Shown piece by piece: positions 13,974 through 42,784 of a stretch of 64,000 nucleotides of DNA. Source of the DNA: Candidatus Adamsella avium (GTDB lineage Bacteria > Cyanobacteriota > Vampirovibrionia > Gastranaerophilales > CAJFVJ01). How positions within the stretch are numbered: the first letter of the stretch is position 1; each line of letters starts with the position of its first letter. Under the pieces are notes generated by a model. It did no database searches, was not told the origin of the DNA, and was given only the letters and a program-made list of their open reading frames with translations. Made by a program: the position numbers and the translations under genes. The DNA lies in assembly GCA_904420445.1 (NCBI GenBank), contig CAJFVJ010000001.1:767266-831265 (forward strand). The letters run 5' to 3'.

Positions 13974-15008
13974 CTAAAACTGTTTCAAAAATCTGATATC
14001 GTTGTTGAAGAACAATCTGATATCGTTTATTGCGTATTTGAGCATGGCAAGTCTTTCAACGCCCATCCCAAACGCAAACCCGCTGTAAACATCAGGGTCG
14101 ATACCTGCGTTTTTCAACACATTCGGGTCAATCATTCCTGCTCCGAGAATTTCTAACCAGCCTGATTGTGAGCAGACACGGCATCCTTTCCCTTTGCACA
14201 TAATGCATTGAACATCAATTTCGGCGCTTGGTTCCGTGAAGGGGAAGAAGCTGCTTCTGAATCTTGTGGGTCTTGATTGACCGAAGTAGAGTCTGATGAA
14301 CTCGTTCAACACGCCTTTCATATCTCCGAAGGTGATGTCTTTGTCAACCATAAAACCTTCTACCTGATGGAAGAGGTTGTTTTTTCTGCTGCTGACATCT
14401 TCTGCACGGTAAACTCTACCTGGGATAACGACTCTCAGCGGAGGTTTTTTTGTCTGCATTTCTCTGACCTGAGAGTTTGATGTGTGGCTTCTCAGGATTA
14501 CATTTGAGGCAAGCTGTGTGTAGAAGGTGTCTTGCATATCTCTTGCCGGATGGTCAGGCGGGAAGTTCAGCATATCGAAGTTGTAGTGTTCTGTTTCGAC
14601 TTCTGGCGAGTGTTGTGATTCAACAAGCGAGAAACCCATACCCTGAAAGATTTCGACTATTTCATCAATTGTTGTTGTAAGCGGGTGTTTTTTGCCTGAA
14701 TAAATACCTCTCCCCGGCATTGTTATGTCGATTTTTTCGCTTTCAATTCTTTTCAGAATTTCTTCTCTTTGCAGAATGTAGAGTTTGTCATTCAGTTTTT
14801 GTTCGAGTTCCTGAGCGATTTCATTGGCAAGTGCTCCGATAATCGGTTTCTGGTCAGCAGGAAGGTCTTTGATTTTCTTTTTGAAAGAGTTCAATTCGCC
14901 TTTTCTGCTGAGGAATTTCAGTTTTACGTCTTCTATGTCTTCGAGTGTTTGAGCATTGTCTATCAAGACGAGTGCGTCTATTTTTATTTGCTGAAGTTTA
15001 TCTCTCAT
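13974..15008 (-). CDS. pheS: Phenylalanine-tRNA ligase alpha subunit
   Basis: This 344-residue class II aminoacyl-tRNA synthetase subunit has an N-terminal coiled coil (1-85). The class II motifs include motif 2 (RVYRAEDVSSRKNNLFHQVEG) and the C-terminal motif 3 (GFAFGMGVERLAMLKYAI). A Cys-rich insertion (CIMCKGKGCRVC) is as in bacterial PheS. The start has a GAGGAAG ribosome binding site. It heads the pheS-pheT operon. Confidence 0.97.
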   Translation of the reverse strand: MRDKLQQIKIDALVLIDNAQTLEDIEDVKLKFLSRKGELNSFKKKIKDLPADQKPIIGALANEIAQELEQKLNDKLYILQREEILKRIESEKIDITMPGRGIYSGKKHPLTTTIDEIVEIFQGMGFSLVESQHSPEVETEHYNFDMLNFPPDHPARDMQDTFYTQLASNVILRSHTSNSQVREMQTKKPPLRVVIPGRVYRAEDVSSRKNNLFHQVEGFMVDKDITFGDMKGVLNEFIRLYFGQSRPTRFRSSFFPFTEPSAEIDVQCIMCKGKGCRVCSQSGWLEILGAGMIDPNVLKNAGIDPDVYSGFAFGMGVERLAMLKYAINDIRLFFNNDIRFLKQF

Positions 15009-15143: not shown

Positions 15144-15170
15144 TAAAGTTTTCATTGAAGGAGTCGATAA
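15144..15170 (+). promoter_or_regulatory. Sigma28 (FliA)-type promoter of a short RNA
   Basis: TAAAGTTT (15144-15151), 11 bp, then GTCGATAA (15163-15170) matches the FliA consensus TAAAGTTT-N11-GCCGATAA at 15 of 16 positions. A TATAAT (15172-15177) with TTTTCA 17 bp upstream overlaps it, so housekeeping sigma could also use the site. No plus-strand gene follows. Confidence 0.7.
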
Positions 15171-15177
15171 ATATAAT

Positions 15178-15243
15178 ATACCAAAACCTCCTCCCCTTTA
15201 AGTCTTGCCGTCGTTTCTAAAATAAAGCTGACGGCTTTTTTTT
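15178..15243 (+). ncRNA. Candidate sigma28-dependent small RNA with anti-Shine-Dalgarno C-rich stretch
   Basis: The sigma28-type promoter would start transcription near 15178, and an intrinsic terminator ends it at 15243, giving about 65 nt. Before the terminator lies an unpaired-looking CCTCCTCCCC (15187-15196), the complement of ribosome binding sites. No start codon with a plausible frame is present. The next gene on either side is on the minus strand, so this is not a leader. The layout resembles C-rich regulatory RNAs in general, such as cyanobacterial Yfr1 with its ACUCCUCAC core, but the sequence is not the same. The RNA is predicted, not demonstrated. Confidence 0.6.
15207..15243 (+). 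terminator. Intrinsic terminator of the candidate small RNA
   Basis: GCCGTC (15207-15212) pairs with GACGGC (15230-15235), followed by eight Ts. On the minus strand the same hairpin has no T-run, so it works only for a plus-strand transcript. Confidence 0.8.
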
Positions 15244-15252
15244 GTGTTTATA

Positions 15253-16125
15253 TCAGGATATTTTCACTCTTGTTTTTACACCCCAGAGGCATATATGCAG
15301 GTATTTTCTATCTCTTGAAATATTCGGGAAATATCTTGAGAAGTATTGTTCGTAGATATTATTCCAGGGGGTAAGTTTTAGGTTTTTGAAATATTCTTTG
15401 TTGTAACCTCTACGGGAACCTGTTCTCCAAGGTTTGTAAGCTGTGATGAAGTGTATCAGATTCGGATATTTTTCTCCTTTTGGATAATATTTTGCTTTCC
15501 CCTGCCAGTTCCATTTGGGTTCGAGAGTTTTGATTTTTCCTTTCATTGCGATGTTCAGAATATCCTGATCATCGAGTCCTTCATCTATTGTGCTGAAGAG
15601 GGTTTGTTCAAGGTTATCCTCTCTCCATTTTTTGAGGTTCATCAGAATTACGCCTGAGTTGTAGTATATCTCATCGTTTTTGAATTGAAGTCTTTCACAG
15701 TTTTCTTCTGAGGAGGTATCTTTGACCATGGCGGCATAAAAGTCTTCTATATCAGTATTATACAGTTCTTCAAGACTTGTCGTTGCGATGACGTCGCAGT
15801 CGAGGTACAAAATTTTGTCTATTCCCCTGAATAAAGAGCTGATTACGAAACGCAAATAGGCCGCTATGCTTAGATAGCCTTTTTTCTCAGGAAGGTATAG
15901 ATTTTTGAACCTTTCATCATCTATCTTGAAGAAGTTGATATCGCAGTCTTTTATTTTTTTGAGGTGTTCAAATTTTGCTTTGTTTTTTTCTGAGATGTGA
16001 TAATCCAATATATAAAAATTCAAGTCATCACTGTCTTTTGCTCTGTTGAGTATTGATGCAATAGACACCCCGCATAATTTTGCATAGTTATCGTCACATG
16101 CAAAACAGATATTTATCCTTGACAT
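15253..16125 (-). CDS. Glycosyltransferase family 8 (LPS-type)
   Basis: This 290-residue protein starts with the GT8 signature region (NICFACDDNYAKLCGVSIAS) and carries the metal-binding DXD motif as LYLDCDV near residue 101. A second conserved region, YYNSGVILMNLKKWRE, follows near 154. Such enzymes transfer glucose or galactose to LPS core or to other surface glycans in the cytoplasm. It is the last gene of the rml operon, so a role in surface polysaccharide is likely. The acceptor is unknown. Confidence 0.88.
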   Translation of the reverse strand: MSRINICFACDDNYAKLCGVSIASILNRAKDSDDLNFYILDYHISEKNKAKFEHLKKIKDCDINFFKIDDERFKNLYLPEKKGYLSIAAYLRFVISSLFRGIDKILYLDCDVIATTSLEELYNTDIEDFYAAMVKDTSSEENCERLQFKNDEIYYNSGVILMNLKKWREDNLEQTLFSTIDEGLDDQDILNIAMKGKIKTLEPKWNWQGKAKYYPKGEKYPNLIHFITAYKPWRTGSRRGYNKEYFKNLKLTPWNNIYEQYFSRYFPNISRDRKYLHICLWGVKTRVKIS

Positions 16126-36426: not shown

Positions 36427-39249
36427 ATGAATCAGATTAATCTGATACTTCAACGGAGTATTAGTCAGGCTAATAACAGAATAGAACAAACTCTTCAACG
36501 ACTTGCCACGGGTATGCGAATAAACTCGCCTGCTGATGACCCGACAGGGCTTGTTTTATCTTCAAATCTGAATTCTGAGATAAGAACACTCGCACAGGCA
36601 ATGCAAAATGCTCAGGACGGCATAAATTTGCTTCATACCGGCATTGACTCACTGCAAACGATGGAGTCAACGCTGCTGAAACTCAAAGAACTGACGGAAA
36701 AGGCTGCTAACGGGACTTATTCAGCTTCTGAACGCCAGGAAATGCAAAAACAGGCAAACGAGCTGCTGAAATCACTTTATACAACAAAAAACTCGACATC
36801 TTTCGGGCAAATAAACATCTTCGGCTCAAAACTCGGTTCTGCATCTGCTCCTTCAACACCATCTGTGGCGTCATATGTTAACTACGCTGCGTTTATGTAT
36901 AATACACCGTCATCAGTCGGCAGCGCCACAAATGACGGCAGCAGCTATGAACGCTATGAAATCAAAACAACCTCATCCTCAAAAACTCTATCTGCTTCAG
37001 CCCCTGCCTATGCCCCTTCAAGCACTCCTGCCTCCGCTCCTGTTTCTGCCACATCGAACACTTCTTCCTCCGAAATAGTTCTTATTAGGTCGGAACAGGA
37101 GTTCATCGACAAAATTGCGCAGGACGGGACGGGCACCGAAGGCAAAACCTATGTCCTCAACAATGACCTTGATTTCTCAACAATTTCAAACTATACAGCA
37201 AAAGAAAACTTCGCAGGAACCATCATCGGCAACGGTCATACCATCAAAAATCTGACCTCAGATCAGGGGCTTTTTGCATCAACAGCGGAATCCTCATCAA
37301 TCAGCGGTTTGACCCTGGACAACTTTATCATCACGGCATCAGGAGATTACACCGGCGCTCTGGTAGGTAACAACAGAGGTGATATCGACGATGTCCATGT
37401 CATCAACTCAACAATCAACGGCGGAAGCTATCAAAACATCGGAGGACTTGCCGGATATAGCTATAATGCATCAATCTCAAACAGCTCGTCTTCGGCAACG
37501 GTTTCTGGCGGTAATCATGTCGGCGGACTTGTCGGTTCAAACGATGCAACAATCACAAACAGCTACTCAACAGGAGATGTTACAGGAACGGAAGATGTTG
37601 GCGGTCTTGTCGGTTCCACTTCAGGAGATATTTCAAACAGCTACTCAACAGGAAATGTCAGCGGTACTGATAAAGTCGGAGGACTTGTCGGTAACCATAC
37701 CACAGGAAGTACTATTTCAAACAGCTATGCAACAGGAGATGTAACTGGAACTTCCTCAGTCGGCGGTCTTACAGGCGTGACTCTTCCATATGCGGTTATT
37801 GAAAACAGCTATGCAACAGGTACGGTAACAGGTACTGAATACGTAGGTGCTCTTGCCGGTCTTTATGGCGGTGTGATTACAAACTCTTTCTTCAATAAAG
37901 AAACAGCAGGTGTTTCATCTGCTGTCGGTTCAGGCTCATCTTACGGCGTAACAGGTCTGACAGGCTCGCAGTTCGCAACCTCAACTCCGTTTGTTAATGC
38001 AGGATGGGACGAAACAATCTGGGATTTCACGGTCGACGGTCCTCACCTCGCCTTGGAAAACTATGAACCTGCTCCGACAGAAATCCATATCACCTCAGCA
38101 CAGGAATTCATCGACAAAATTGCTCAGGATGGGACAGGCACAGCCGGAAGAACCTACATTCTCGACAATGACATTGATTTCTCAACAATCTCAAACTATG
38201 TTGCAAAAGAAAACTTCTCAGGAACCATCATCGGCAACGGTCATACCATCAAAAATTTGACCTCAGATCAGGTCAGTGATTTGACCCTCGAAAACTTTAC
38301 CATCACTGCGTCAGAAAATAATACCGGCGCACTCGTCGGAGTGAACAGAGGTGATATTGACGATGTCCATATCATCAACTCAACAATCGACGGCGGAAGT
38401 TATCAAAACATCGGAGGTCTTGCAGGTTCAAGCTCATCTGGAACAATCTCGAACAGCTCGTCTTCCGCAACGGTTTCCGGCGGTAATCGGGTCGGCGGTC
38501 TTGTCGGTTCAAGCTATGCAACAATCACAAACAGCTACTCAACAGGAGATGTTACAGGAACGGAAAAGGTCGGCGGTCTTGCCGGTTCCACTTCAGGAGA
38601 TATTTCAAACAGCTATTCAACGGGAGATGTTACTGGAGATGCATCTGTTGGCGGACTTGTCGGCATAGCAGGCTCAAGTTCAATTTCAAACAGTTATTCG
38701 ACAGGAACTGTTACAGGAACGACAGATGTTGGAGGTCTTGTCGGTCAATCTCAATATACGAATATAGTTGACAGCTATACAACATCGAATGTCAAAGGTT
38801 CTTCGTATACAGGTGCTTTTGTCGGCAGGCAAAACTACGGAACTATTACAAACTCTTTCTACAATAAAGAAACAGCAGGTGTTTCATCTGCTCTCGGCTC
38901 AGGCTCATCTTACGGCGTAACAGGTCTGACAGGCTCGCAGTTCGCAACCTCAACACCGTTTGTTAATGCAGGGTGGAGTGAAGCTGACTGGGATTTCACC
39001 GTCGACGGTCCTCACCTCGTCTGGGAAAACTATGAACCTGCAAGCTCTACAATCCACATCTCATCAGCACAGGAGTTCATCGACAAAATAGCTCAGGATG
39101 GGACAGGCACCGAAGGCAAAACCTATGTCCTCAACAATGACCTTGATTTCTCAACAATCTCAAACTATGTTGCAAAAGAAAACTTCTCAGGAACCATCAT
39201 CGGCAACGGTCATACCATCAAAAATTTGACCTCAGATCAGGGAAAATAA
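36427..39249 (+). CDS. Giant GLUG-repeat flagellin, N-terminal part (frame broken at 39246)
   Basis: This frame encodes 940 residues. Residues 1-140 are a typical flagellin N-terminal D0/D1 domain (ILQRSISQANNRIEQTLQRLATGMRINSPADDPTGLVLSSNL). After a Ser/Pro-rich linker (about 140-215) follow modules of a FIDKIAQDGTGT...IIGNGHTIKNLTS lead and GLUG-type repeats (VGGLVG...ISNSYSTGDVTGT), about 12 in this part. GLUG repeats occur in secreted adhesins. The frame ends at TAA 39247-39249. Reading continues correctly one frame over at 39246 as ENNTGALVGVNRGDIDD. Relative to the matching place in the second module (about 38272), 41 nt are missing. The broken gene may be real, phase-variable, or an assembly collapse of near-identical repeats. 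Confidence 0.9.
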   Translation: MNQINLILQRSISQANNRIEQTLQRLATGMRINSPADDPTGLVLSSNLNSEIRTLAQAMQNAQDGINLLHTGIDSLQTMESTLLKLKELTEKAANGTYSASERQEMQKQANELLKSLYTTKNSTSFGQINIFGSKLGSASAPSTPSVASYVNYAAFMYNTPSSVGSATNDGSSYERYEIKTTSSSKTLSASAPAYAPSSTPASAPVSATSNTSSSEIVLIRSEQEFIDKIAQDGTGTEGKTYVLNNDLDFSTISNYTAKENFAGTIIGNGHTIKNLTSDQGLFASTAESSSISGLTLDNFIITASGDYTGALVGNNRGDIDDVHVINSTINGGSYQNIGGLAGYSYNASISNSSSSATVSGGNHVGGLVGSNDATITNSYSTGDVTGTEDVGGLVGSTSGDISNSYSTGNVSGTDKVGGLVGNHTTGSTISNSYATGDVTGTSSVGGLTGVTLPYAVIENSYATGTVTGTEYVGALAGLYGGVITNSFFNKETAGVSSAVGSGSSYGVTGLTGSQFATSTPFVNAGWDETIWDFTVDGPHLALENYEPAPTEIHITSAQEFIDKIAQDGTGTAGRTYILDNDIDFSTISNYVAKENFSGTIIGNGHTIKNLTSDQVSDLTLENFTITASENNTGALVGVNRGDIDDVHIINSTIDGGSYQNIGGLAGSSSSGTISNSSSSATVSGGNRVGGLVGSSYATITNSYSTGDVTGTEKVGGLAGSTSGDISNSYSTGDVTGDASVGGLVGIAGSSSISNSYSTGTVTGTTDVGGLVGQSQYTNIVDSYTTSNVKGSSYTGAFVGRQNYGTITNSFYNKETAGVSSALGSGSSYGVTGLTGSQFATSTPFVNAGWSEADWDFTVDGPHLVWENYEPASSTIHISSAQEFIDKIAQDGTGTEGKTYVLNNDLDFSTISNYVAKENFSGTIIGNGHTIKNLTSDQGK

Positions 39250-41800
39250 TACCGGCGCACTCGTCGGAGTGAACAGAGGTGATATCGACGATGTCCATGT
39301 CATCAACGCAACAATCAACGGCGGAAGTTATCAAGACATCGGAGGACTCATCGGAAACAATCAATCAGGGGATATTTCAAATTCATCTGCTGATGTAACC
39401 ATTACCGGAGATGGAGGAATGTACGGCGGTCTTGTAGGACAGGTTGTTAACGGAACAATCACAAACAGCAGTTCATCAGGCAGTATATCAGGTAATAGCG
39501 TCGTTGGCGGGCTAATCGGCGACTTCTCATCAGGAGGATCCGCATCAATTACAAATTCTTATTCAACGGCAGATGTGACAGGTAATACTGCTGTCGGCGG
39601 ATTTATCGGTTATATGAGTATCGGCGGCGGAAGCGTTTCGGATTCTTATTCATCAGGTAATGTCAACGGAAATTCTTCTGCAGAAAACATCGGCGGTTTT
39701 GTCGGAGATATGAACTCAGGAACCCTCACGAATGTCTATGCCTATGGAGAAGTGAATACTGACAGCACCAATAACGTCGGAGGTTTTGCAGGAAAAATAA
39801 CAAGCGGAAACATTACAAACAGCTTCTGGAACACGACGGCAGCAGGAACAACAGCTGTCGGAAACGGCTCATCATCAGGTATGACAGGGCTGAGCGAAAA
39901 AGAATTCTCTGCTCATAATTTTGCTGCTGACGGATGGGACACTTCCATCTGGGACTTCAATGAAGACAGACCTCATTTGAAAACCGAAAACTACCTCCCC
40001 CCGACGGCAGGCGGAACAGGTGTCGGTCAAATTAGCGCAGAAGAAGCCGAACAGCTCGGATATATTTTGATATGGAATTTCAATGATTTTATCGATAAAA
40101 TAGCTCAGGACGGATCTGGCACTGCAGGCAAGACATATATTCTTATGAATGATATAAATATGTCTTCGTTGTCGGATTATAAGGCAAAAGAAAACTTCGC
40201 AGGAACTTTCCTCGGCAACGGCTATACAATCAAAAATCTTACATCAGGCGGAGGGTTGTTCTCCTCGACAACCGCTGACGCCGAGATAAAAGATGTTACC
40301 CTTGATAATTTCAATGTTGAAGCAAATGCCTCAAATACAGGTATTTTGGTTAATACAAACGCAGGAAATATCGAGAATGTTAAGATTACAAACTCAAATA
40401 TCACAACCGGTAATGCTGCTATTCTTTTTTCATCTGTCGGAGGTCTTGCAGGCACAAGCTCTGGAACAATCTCGAACAGCTCTGTTGATGTTGATATAGA
40501 CGGCGCTTTTGATGCAGTAGGCGGTCTTATCGGACATAATACCGGAACAATCACAGACAGCTTGACTTCTGGGACTATAACAGGAGTAAAAAATTATCAG
40601 GTCGGAGGTCTTGTCGGCGAAAACGACGGAACTATCTCAGGAAGCTCTTCAACAGTTGATGTAGAAGGACATACAAATATCGGCGGTCTTGTCGGTTTGA
40701 ACAACTCGGGTACAATTTCTGACAGTCATGCAGAGGGCAGTGTCAGCGGAAACAGCGCAGGCGGCTTAATCGGAAATAACAACGGCGGCACAATCGACAA
40801 CAGTTATGCAACCGGAAATGTCGAAGGCAACGATAAAACAGGTGGTCTTATCGGTGTGAACTCAGGAACAATCACTGACAGCCATGCGGAAGGAGATGTC
40901 ACAGGAACTGAAAACACCGGAGGACTGATAGGTCAAAACAGTGGAAGCACTTCAACAATTACAAACAGCTATGCAACAGGAAATGTTGAAGGAACTGAAA
41001 ACACTGGAGGACTTATAGGTCTGAACAACTATGCAACAATCACCGGAAGTTATGCTGAAGGCAGTGTCAACGGCAAAACCAATACGGGCGGTCTGATAGG
41101 AAGAAACATCGCAGGTACAATCTCAAACAGCCATGCAACAGGCAGAGTTGAATCCAGCGGAGAGAACACAGGCGGGCTTGTCGGATGGAACAACGGAGCA
41201 GGAATTATCACAAACAGTTATGCCGCAGGAAATGTCGAAGGTCGTGATAAGTCAGGCGGTCTTGTCGGCAGCAATGAAGGCAGCACAATCGAAAACAGCT
41301 ACGCAACAGGAAATGTCAACCAGACAAATGTTATGACATCTATCATCGGCGGACTTGTCGGTTATAACTCTGGGACAATCACAGGCAGCCATGCAGAAGG
41401 CAATGTTTCTGGACAAATCGGTGTCGGCGGTCTTGTCGGTCAACACAGCAGCGGAAGTATCACAGGAAGTTATGCGACAGGTGATATTTTTGGTCAAACA
41501 AATGTCGGAGGTTTTGCAGGATATAACAACGGAATAATTGAAAACGGCTATGCCACCGGTGATGTTGAAGGAAGTGACAACGCAGGCGGATTTGCAGGCG
41601 TAAATTACGGTACAATCACCGGCAGCTATGCAGAAGGCGCTGTTTCCGGTTATAGCGCTATCGGCGGATTTGTCGGAGTTAATTCAACAACAGCCAGCGG
41701 CAACGGAGAAATATCTGACAGCTATTCAATCGGAACCGTTACTGGAATTGCCGGCGGCAGCGGAAATATCGGCGGATTTGTCGGTAATATGACATACGGT
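37093..41800 (+). repeat. Four tandem ~1-kb adhesin modules within the giant flagellin
   Basis: The module-start sequence encoding FIDKIAQDG recurs at about 37102, 38107, 39076 and 40088, at spacings of 1005, 969 and 1012 bp. Modules 1-3 share long stretches of near-identical DNA, such as the segment coding for GTIIGNGHTIKNLTSDQ. Module 4 is more diverged and carries a longer GLUG stretch. Within modules, short units of about 60-100 bp code for single GLUG repeats. Confidence 0.85.
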
Positions 41801-42784
41801 ACCTTTACAAACGTCTATTCCTACGGTGCGGTGAACTCAAGTGCTACAAACACCGGAGGATTTGCAGGAACAATAACCGGCGGAAGCGTTGCAAACAGCT
41901 TCTGGAATACGACGACAGCAGGAATGACCGGTGTTAGCAGCGGAGCATCAACAGGTCTGACCGGACTTACGACACAAGATTTTATGAATATGAACAATTT
42001 TGTCGGAGCAGGCTGGAATGACACAATTTGGAATTTGACACAGGGGAACCCGAGACCTCATCTTGAATGGGAAAATTATGTCGGTCCCGGAGTTGACCCG
42101 GGAGATGAAGGCGACCCTGACTTTGACGGATATCCTGACACCCCTGGCAGCGGAGGTCAAAGCGGTTCTTATCCGACAGACCCCGGGAATAATGATGCTA
42201 AAACGGAAGTCGTGCTGCAAATAGGCACTGATAATGATGAATCTTCACGGTGGACAATTGATACAAGTCTTGATTTTGACGATATCTGGATAAATTTATC
42301 AAACAGCGATACAGCAAGAATAAGTCTTGAGTCGATTGATAATGCGCTTGCAACTGTCCGTGAGAAAATAGCTTCTTTCTCTACAACAGCAGATATTCTT
42401 AAGTCTTCTATCGAAACAAGCGAGGCGAAGTCTGAAAATCTTGAGGCTGCAAAGTCAACAATTCTTGATGCGGATATTGCAGCTGAAATGGTTGAGCTGA
42501 TGAAGGCAAAACGGCAATTTGAATTGAGCAACACTATGCTGATACAGGCAGGGAATATTCAATATAATCAGGCTATGGCGTTGATAGAAGGATTGAATTT
42601 TGCTTCATCAGGACAGGAAGTTCAGAATTCGCTGAATAATATTCAACGCAACGGAAGAGAACATCAATCAATTTTGAATTCAATACAAAATAACAATATT
42701 TATCACCAGAGTATTCTTGATGTTGTTGCCGATAACAACGCAAAAAACAATATTATGCTGAAAATGATTAATAAGTATAAATAA
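39246..42784 (+). CDS. Giant GLUG-repeat flagellin, C-terminal part (continues the broken frame)
   Basis: From the frameshift onward about 1,175 residues are coded. The first possible start is GTG 39269, without ribosome binding site, so independent translation is doubtful. About 24 further GLUG-type repeats (GGLIG, GGLVG, GGFVG cores) run to near codon 900. An Asp/Pro/Gly linker (GVDPGDEGDPDFDGYPD) and a flagellin C-terminal D1/D0 domain (KSENLEAAKSTILDADIAAEMVELMKAKRQFELSNTMLIQAGNIQYNQAMALI) follow. About 65 residues (FASSGQEVQNSLNNIQRNGREHQ...NKYK) extend beyond the point where flagellins normally end. If joined with the first part the protein would have about 2,115 residues. The next flagellin starts 16 bp later. 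Confidence 0.85.
42728..42735 (+). promoter_or_regulatory. Possible internal sigma28 -10 element for the second flagellin
   Basis: GCCGATAA is a perfect FliA -10 sequence, 65 bp ahead of the next flagellin start and inside the 3' end of the giant gene. The matching -35 is poor (CAGAGTAT, 13 bp upstream). Confidence 0.45.

Follow-up and report, generated by a model that had tools for sequence, protein, structure and literature searches.

Small RNAs under sigma28 that control flagellar genes are an already known kind. In Campylobacter, CjNC1 and CjNC4 (CJnc10/CJnc170, FlmR) are short sigma28-dependent non-coding RNA paralogs (PMC4626219, PMC11187230). They are predicted to base-pair at the ribosome-binding sites of middle flagellar genes, flaB and flgE2 among them (PMC4626219). 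Overexpression of CJnc170 gives shorter flagella and less motility, which partly supports this logic for Campylobacter (PMC11187230). In E. coli, the sigma28-controlled sRNAs UhpU, MotR, FliX and FlgO tune flagella synthesis (PMC10578931). Here, we analysed the window, a 64,000-nucleotide stretch of the Candidatus Adamsella avium genome, and describe an RNA family of the Candidatus Gastranaerophilales to which one of its loci belongs. As far as we searched, novelty lies in the family and its target rule, in the lineage that hosts it and in its persistence where flagellin is absent.

The locus has three sequence features of the sigma28 flagellar sRNA class, namely a sigma28 promoter, a FliA gene in the genome and a seed that is complementary to flagellar mRNAs close to their start codons. 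Like CjNC1 and CjNC4, it would be a sigma28-type RNA with paralogs that pairs with ribosome-binding sites of middle flagellar genes, a likeness drawn from the described logic only. The Campylobacter RNAs, in contrast, come from an unrelated organism, are identical to each other at 37 of 44 nt and have no reported order-wide family, whereas the new family has a covarying 5' hairpin in its canonical copies, a CCUCCUCCCC seed, predicted targets that include flgB, flgE, flgG and flgD, and is retained without flagellin. The E. coli set differs in being UTR-derived and studied in the context of Hfq, and MotR and FliX pair inside coding sequences; the window sRNA is a free-standing gene with an anti-Shine-Dalgarno seed. 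Its features are as follows.

15144-15170, + strand: sigma28 (FliA)-type promoter, -35 element TAAAGTTT (15144-15151), spacer of 11, -10 element GTCGATAA (15163-15170); 15 of 16 consensus positions
15149-15177, + strand: overlapping sigma70-like TTTTCA-N17-TATAAT, a possible alternative promoter by consensus match only
15178-15243, + strand: predicted sRNA of ~66 nt, hairpin-less paralog of the family, from sequence, fold and conservation in the sister species G001
15187-15196, + strand: seed CCUCCUCCCC (DNA CCTCCTCCCC), predicted to be unpaired, anti-Shine-Dalgarno; near-invariant in 175 family copies
15200-15205, + strand: conserved AAGUCU after the seed, near-invariant across the family
15207-15243, + strand: intrinsic terminator, hairpin 15207-15235 followed by U8 (T8) at 15236-15243; terminator hairpin family-wide

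The best explanation of these features is a compact stand-alone sRNA gene that would be transcribed from a sigma28-type promoter, with a start at ~15178, placed ~7 nt past the -10 box. Its flanking genes are pheS (13974-15008) and a glycosyltransferase gene (15253-16125), both on the - strand, and no + strand gene is found between the two. A sigma28 site of the 15/16 grade has an expected count of 0 in the shuffled window, and the whole genome holds just three sites with at most one mismatch, this one among them. With up to three mismatches allowed, the genome holds 66 sites, fewer than the 86 of the reversed control; because such loose sites are no commoner than the control, weak sigma28 matches are uninformative. 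In the sister species, the element is 94% identical, the promoter is perfect (16/16) and the final ~80 nt are the same except for one T in the U-run. Folding of the window RNA gives the seed a mean unpaired probability of 0.99 and the terminator hairpin a z of -3.2, and the T-run follows the hairpin on the + strand only. Thus, the near-perfect sigma28 promoter and the one-directional terminator on a strand without a gene, both reported in the first-pass annotation, are borne out. The sigma70-like site that overlaps the promoter, an addition to the first-pass annotation, counts against this explanation; sigma70-like sites in this region are no commoner than in shuffled sequence. Evidence on this genome comes from searches and sampled stretches.

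A homologous element with the core CYTCCCCAAGTCTNGTAGCC is present in 180 of 192 sampled genomes of the order, and the reversed-pattern control gives almost no matches. We built a covariance model from a hand-checked subset of canonical copies, an early MAFFT alignment having misaligned the hairpins and proved unusable. The model matches in 188 listed genomes of the order; five listed genomes lack a match, and 80 more matchless genomes are not listed by name. Outside the order but within the class, it finds a single marginal match (G217, E=0.007). In Rfam scans of the window and the loci, tRNAs alone reach the gathering score and sub-threshold matches are at chance level. Our literature search for small RNAs, non-coding RNAs or FliA in Melainabacteria or Gastranaerophilales found nothing relevant. 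The family is therefore new in that it is missing from Rfam and undescribed as far as searched.

In canonical copies, the covarying 5' hairpin and the terminator hairpin flank an unpaired, almost invariant ACCUCCUCCCCAAGUCURGUA. When each copy is folded singly, a 5' hairpin with 6 bp or more forms in 161 of 175, and its stem occurs in 76 distinct sequences; the near-invariant stretch 3' of the hairpin is unpaired. Two-sided compensatory changes occur in 14 of 18 pairs (166 cells versus 43 in shuffles) in an alignment that was fitted to the model and is biased toward it. A canonical copy lies elsewhere in the window's genome (L010, G000:C1:611392). In the window copy, the seed, AAGTCT and the terminator are retained, whereas the 5' hairpin and the GTAGCC portion of the core are missing; judged by sequence, this copy is a second, divergent, hairpin-less paralog of the order-wide family. 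The first-pass proposals of a compact small-RNA gene and of a C-rich anti-Shine-Dalgarno stretch are supported. Non-conservation in relatives, which would have spoken against the gene, was not what we found, with the family widespread and sigma28-like promoters far above chance.

Neighbouring genes and their strands vary across the family, and the largest neighbour cluster comprises 31 members. Cis-regulation as the leader of one neighbour gene is ruled out by this variation; since the neighbours are not conserved, the element is a free-standing gene. Flagellated genomes carry more copies; several per genome are common in flagellated families, some of them in tandem. Three tandem genes with a spacing of 362 nt occur in G018 (L241/L275, G018:C16), and pairs occur in G015, G029, G004 and G010 (loci L270, L268, L262 and L260).

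In layout, the family resembles cyanobacterial Yfr1, which shares the 5' hairpin, an unpaired C/U-rich ultraconserved motif, the terminator, a lineage-wide distribution and a similar size (PMC2190773). The two-stem-loop arrangement of Yfr1 is found in the canonical copies, and the window copy is without the 5' hairpin. Such a hairpin-less copy recalls Yfr10, a second RNA that carries the motif in another structural context (PMC6778093). However, the Yfr1 motif is ACUCCUCACAC, versus CCUCCUCCCCAAGUCU in the new family, and the unpaired region contains the family core and no ACUCCUCACAC; there is also no Rfam match. Because the defining motif is missing, the family is not assigned as Yfr1 although its layout is that of a Yfr1-type RNA, in agreement with the earlier view of it as Yfr1-like but distinct. 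On genomic position, Yfr1 is characterised by a place next to guaB; the window copy has pheS and a glycosyltransferase gene as neighbours, and the neighbours of the other copies vary. To our knowledge, Yfr1 is not a FliA-driven flagellar RNA.

The reverse complement of the seed, GGGGAGG before an ATG, was first noticed at flgE-like and flgB genes of two genomes (G006, G015). The Shine-Dalgarno (SD) sequence of flgE is GGGGAG in 13 of 20 flagellated genomes; a background sample of 323 genes, drawn from five of them, has it in 4 (Fisher p=1.5e-15; the tests overstate independence because the genomes share ancestry, and start sites were chosen by rule). The difference holds among GGAG-core genes only, a control for SD strength (13/20 versus 4/101, p=1.5e-9), and GGGGAG is still found in 11 of 18 flgE genes without the two discovery genomes. 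GGGGAG or GGGAGG precedes flgB in 10 of 19 and flgG in 10 of 19 genomes versus 7 of 323 background genes, and flgD has a site similar to that of flgE. In class relatives without the sRNA, by contrast, none of 20 flgE genes has GGGGAG (p=6e-6), one further match with a wrong start having been set aside. AAGGAG is almost missing at hook and rod genes and common in other genes.

In the window's genome, the flgB SD gggaggagg would form nine perfect pairs with CCUCCUCCC. Only eight of 424 genes, in a sample enriched for flagellar regions, have such SDs, and flgB, flgG and flgD are three of these eight. The flgE gene of the window's genome has AGGAGG, which gives only 6 pairs. When sampled genes of this genome were ranked by duplex energy, flgB came first, yet shuffled seeds reach similar energies; we dropped the ranking for the SD-motif test, as it had no significance within this genome alone. 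The invariant CCUCCCC of the sRNA is the complement of the unusual SD GGGGAG(G) of hook and rod genes, a match suggesting that the RNA shuts off hook building when the filament phase starts. The first-pass annotation had proposed a possible block of mRNAs with GAGGAGG sites; the anti-SD seed of that proposal stands, and the best-supported target is GGGGAG(G) at hook and rod genes, not GAGGAGG in general.

Therefore, we consider it probable, with moderate confidence, that the family comprises stand-alone, trans-acting sRNAs with FliA promoters that repress hook and rod mRNAs. In flagellated members, FliA would turn active after hook completion, and the sRNA, transcribed by FliA, would then accumulate. 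Its unpaired CCUCCUCCCC would pair with the G-extended SDs GGGGAG(G) and GGGAGG(AGG) of flgB, flgE, flgG and flgD mRNAs, barring the ribosome and stopping translation. The outcome would be negative feedback from late to middle flagellar genes. As the best model, hook repression is drawn by analogy with the proposal for CjNC1/CjNC4. Our computations establish that the RNA structure is conserved, that the promoters are of the sigma28 class, that FliA is present and that complementary SDs are enriched at hook and rod genes in genomes with the sRNA and not in class relatives without it; what we infer is that the RNA is transcribed, depends on FliA, pairs with its targets and represses them at the proposed time.

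The distribution of FliA and flagellin bears on how far this hook-directed role extends. A sigma28-like promoter of at least 13/16 (best upstream match) precedes 75% of copies in flagellated families and 42% of copies in family f2, which lacks flagellin, taken with unassigned relatives, versus 0.2% in Markov-resampled sequence. FliA is found above the TIGR02479 cut-off in 56 of 60 genomes, the protein of the window's genome scoring 252.5 bits against a cut-off of 189.6. Flagellin, however, is present in only 21 of 60 and in no member of f2, and the sRNA and FliA are kept also in genomes without it. That flagella are missing in some members of the order has been published (PMC4040986). The earlier suggestion that the RNA is made when flagella are built fits the sigma28-type promoter and cannot be its full role because FliA and the RNA persist where flagellin is gone.

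This persistence speaks for a rival reading in which the main role of the RNA lies in a non-flagellar FliA regulon, in the form of a second FlhA/FliF-type export system or its substrates, and hook targeting has become a side function or disappeared in most species. Nearly all sampled genomes, f2 included, encode a second full-length FlhA-like protein, whose gene clusters with FliF-like genes and, in the window's genome, with rod-like genes in the stretches read. In the stretches that we inspected, though, the second system shows no consistent GGGGAG sites, and sRNA copy number is greater in flagellated genomes, so we regard this reading as rather unlikely. Distinctly less credible is a general anti-SD RNA that damps many mRNAs with strong SDs, the flagellar genes being incidental. 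ACCUCCU is the anti-SD core of 16S rRNA, which the RNA would mimic; AGGAGG SDs would also pair, and the retention in flagellin-less genomes fits such a role. The strongest constraint, however, reaches past the 16S-like part (CCCCAAGUCU), the G extension at hook and rod SDs matches CCCC of the sRNA and not UUU of 16S rRNA, and AAGGAG, common in other genes, is almost missing at those SDs.

The G-rich SDs could also be kept for translation strength or for another regulator, with the sRNA match coincidental. In other bacteria, for example, CsrA acts on flagellar mRNAs by way of GGA sites (PMC4894983); inheritance of the SD trait as a single block is also conceivable. GGA suffices for CsrA, however, and GGGGAG is not required; the enrichment holds among GGAG-core genes, GGGGAG is missing at flgE of relatives without the sRNA, and a motif scan limited to the sampled stretches found no csrA-like ORF. 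We judge this account quite improbable. The proposal that the RNA is the Yfr1 ortholog of a non-photosynthetic cyanobacterial lineage is the least probable of all, even with the common layout, like size, sister lineage and CUCCUC in both RNAs (PMC2190773): ACUCCUCACAC is missing, the Rfam search gave no Yfr1 match at E up to 5, and there are no intermediates linking the two because other orders of the class lack the family.

Given late-to-middle feedback on hook and rod genes as the preferred reading, the flagellin-less gut lineages present a further, tentative possibility, namely that the sRNA outlived the flagellum and that FliA and the anti-SD RNA, after rewiring, now serve a non-flagellar function. 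We raise it because flagellin was lost and FliA, the second export apparatus and the sRNA with its sigma28-type promoter were kept. The family would offer a handle on why non-flagellated gut bacteria retain FliA. If the assignment is true, this would be the first sRNA family for the non-photosynthetic sister lineage of cyanobacteria, none having been found in the literature or Rfam as searched, with a specific target rule of CCUCCCC versus GGGGAG. With CjNC1/CjNC4 as the counterpart, the family suggests independent origins, in Campylobacter and in Melainabacteria, of late-to-middle feedback through sigma28 sRNAs on hook synthesis.

Several minor observations were made along the way. In one subgroup, the sRNA has a DNA methylase gene (N6_N4_Mtase) nearby, and all five loci (L097 6700, L101, L108, L124 and L159 4161) carry a GGGGAG SD before it; three of these loci are near-identical. 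The methylase mRNA is a possible target in flagellin-less species, as a lead only. A second flagellum-like export cluster with FliF-like, FlhA-like and rod-like proteins lies at L426 8473-18865 (G000:C1 ~28.5-38.9 kb). Other strong sigma28-like sites of the window's genome (L040, L042, L048, L058 and L059) precede genes of unknown function, some of which start with MGLAASQA.. and possibly encode exported proteins of the FliA regulon. Finally, the window contains a giant flagellin with a repeat-rich insert (36427-42784, + strand) in two ORFs of 940 and 1171 aa, with a break near 39250 that may be real, phase variation or an assembly error; the sister species has a single 1557-aa frame at this position.
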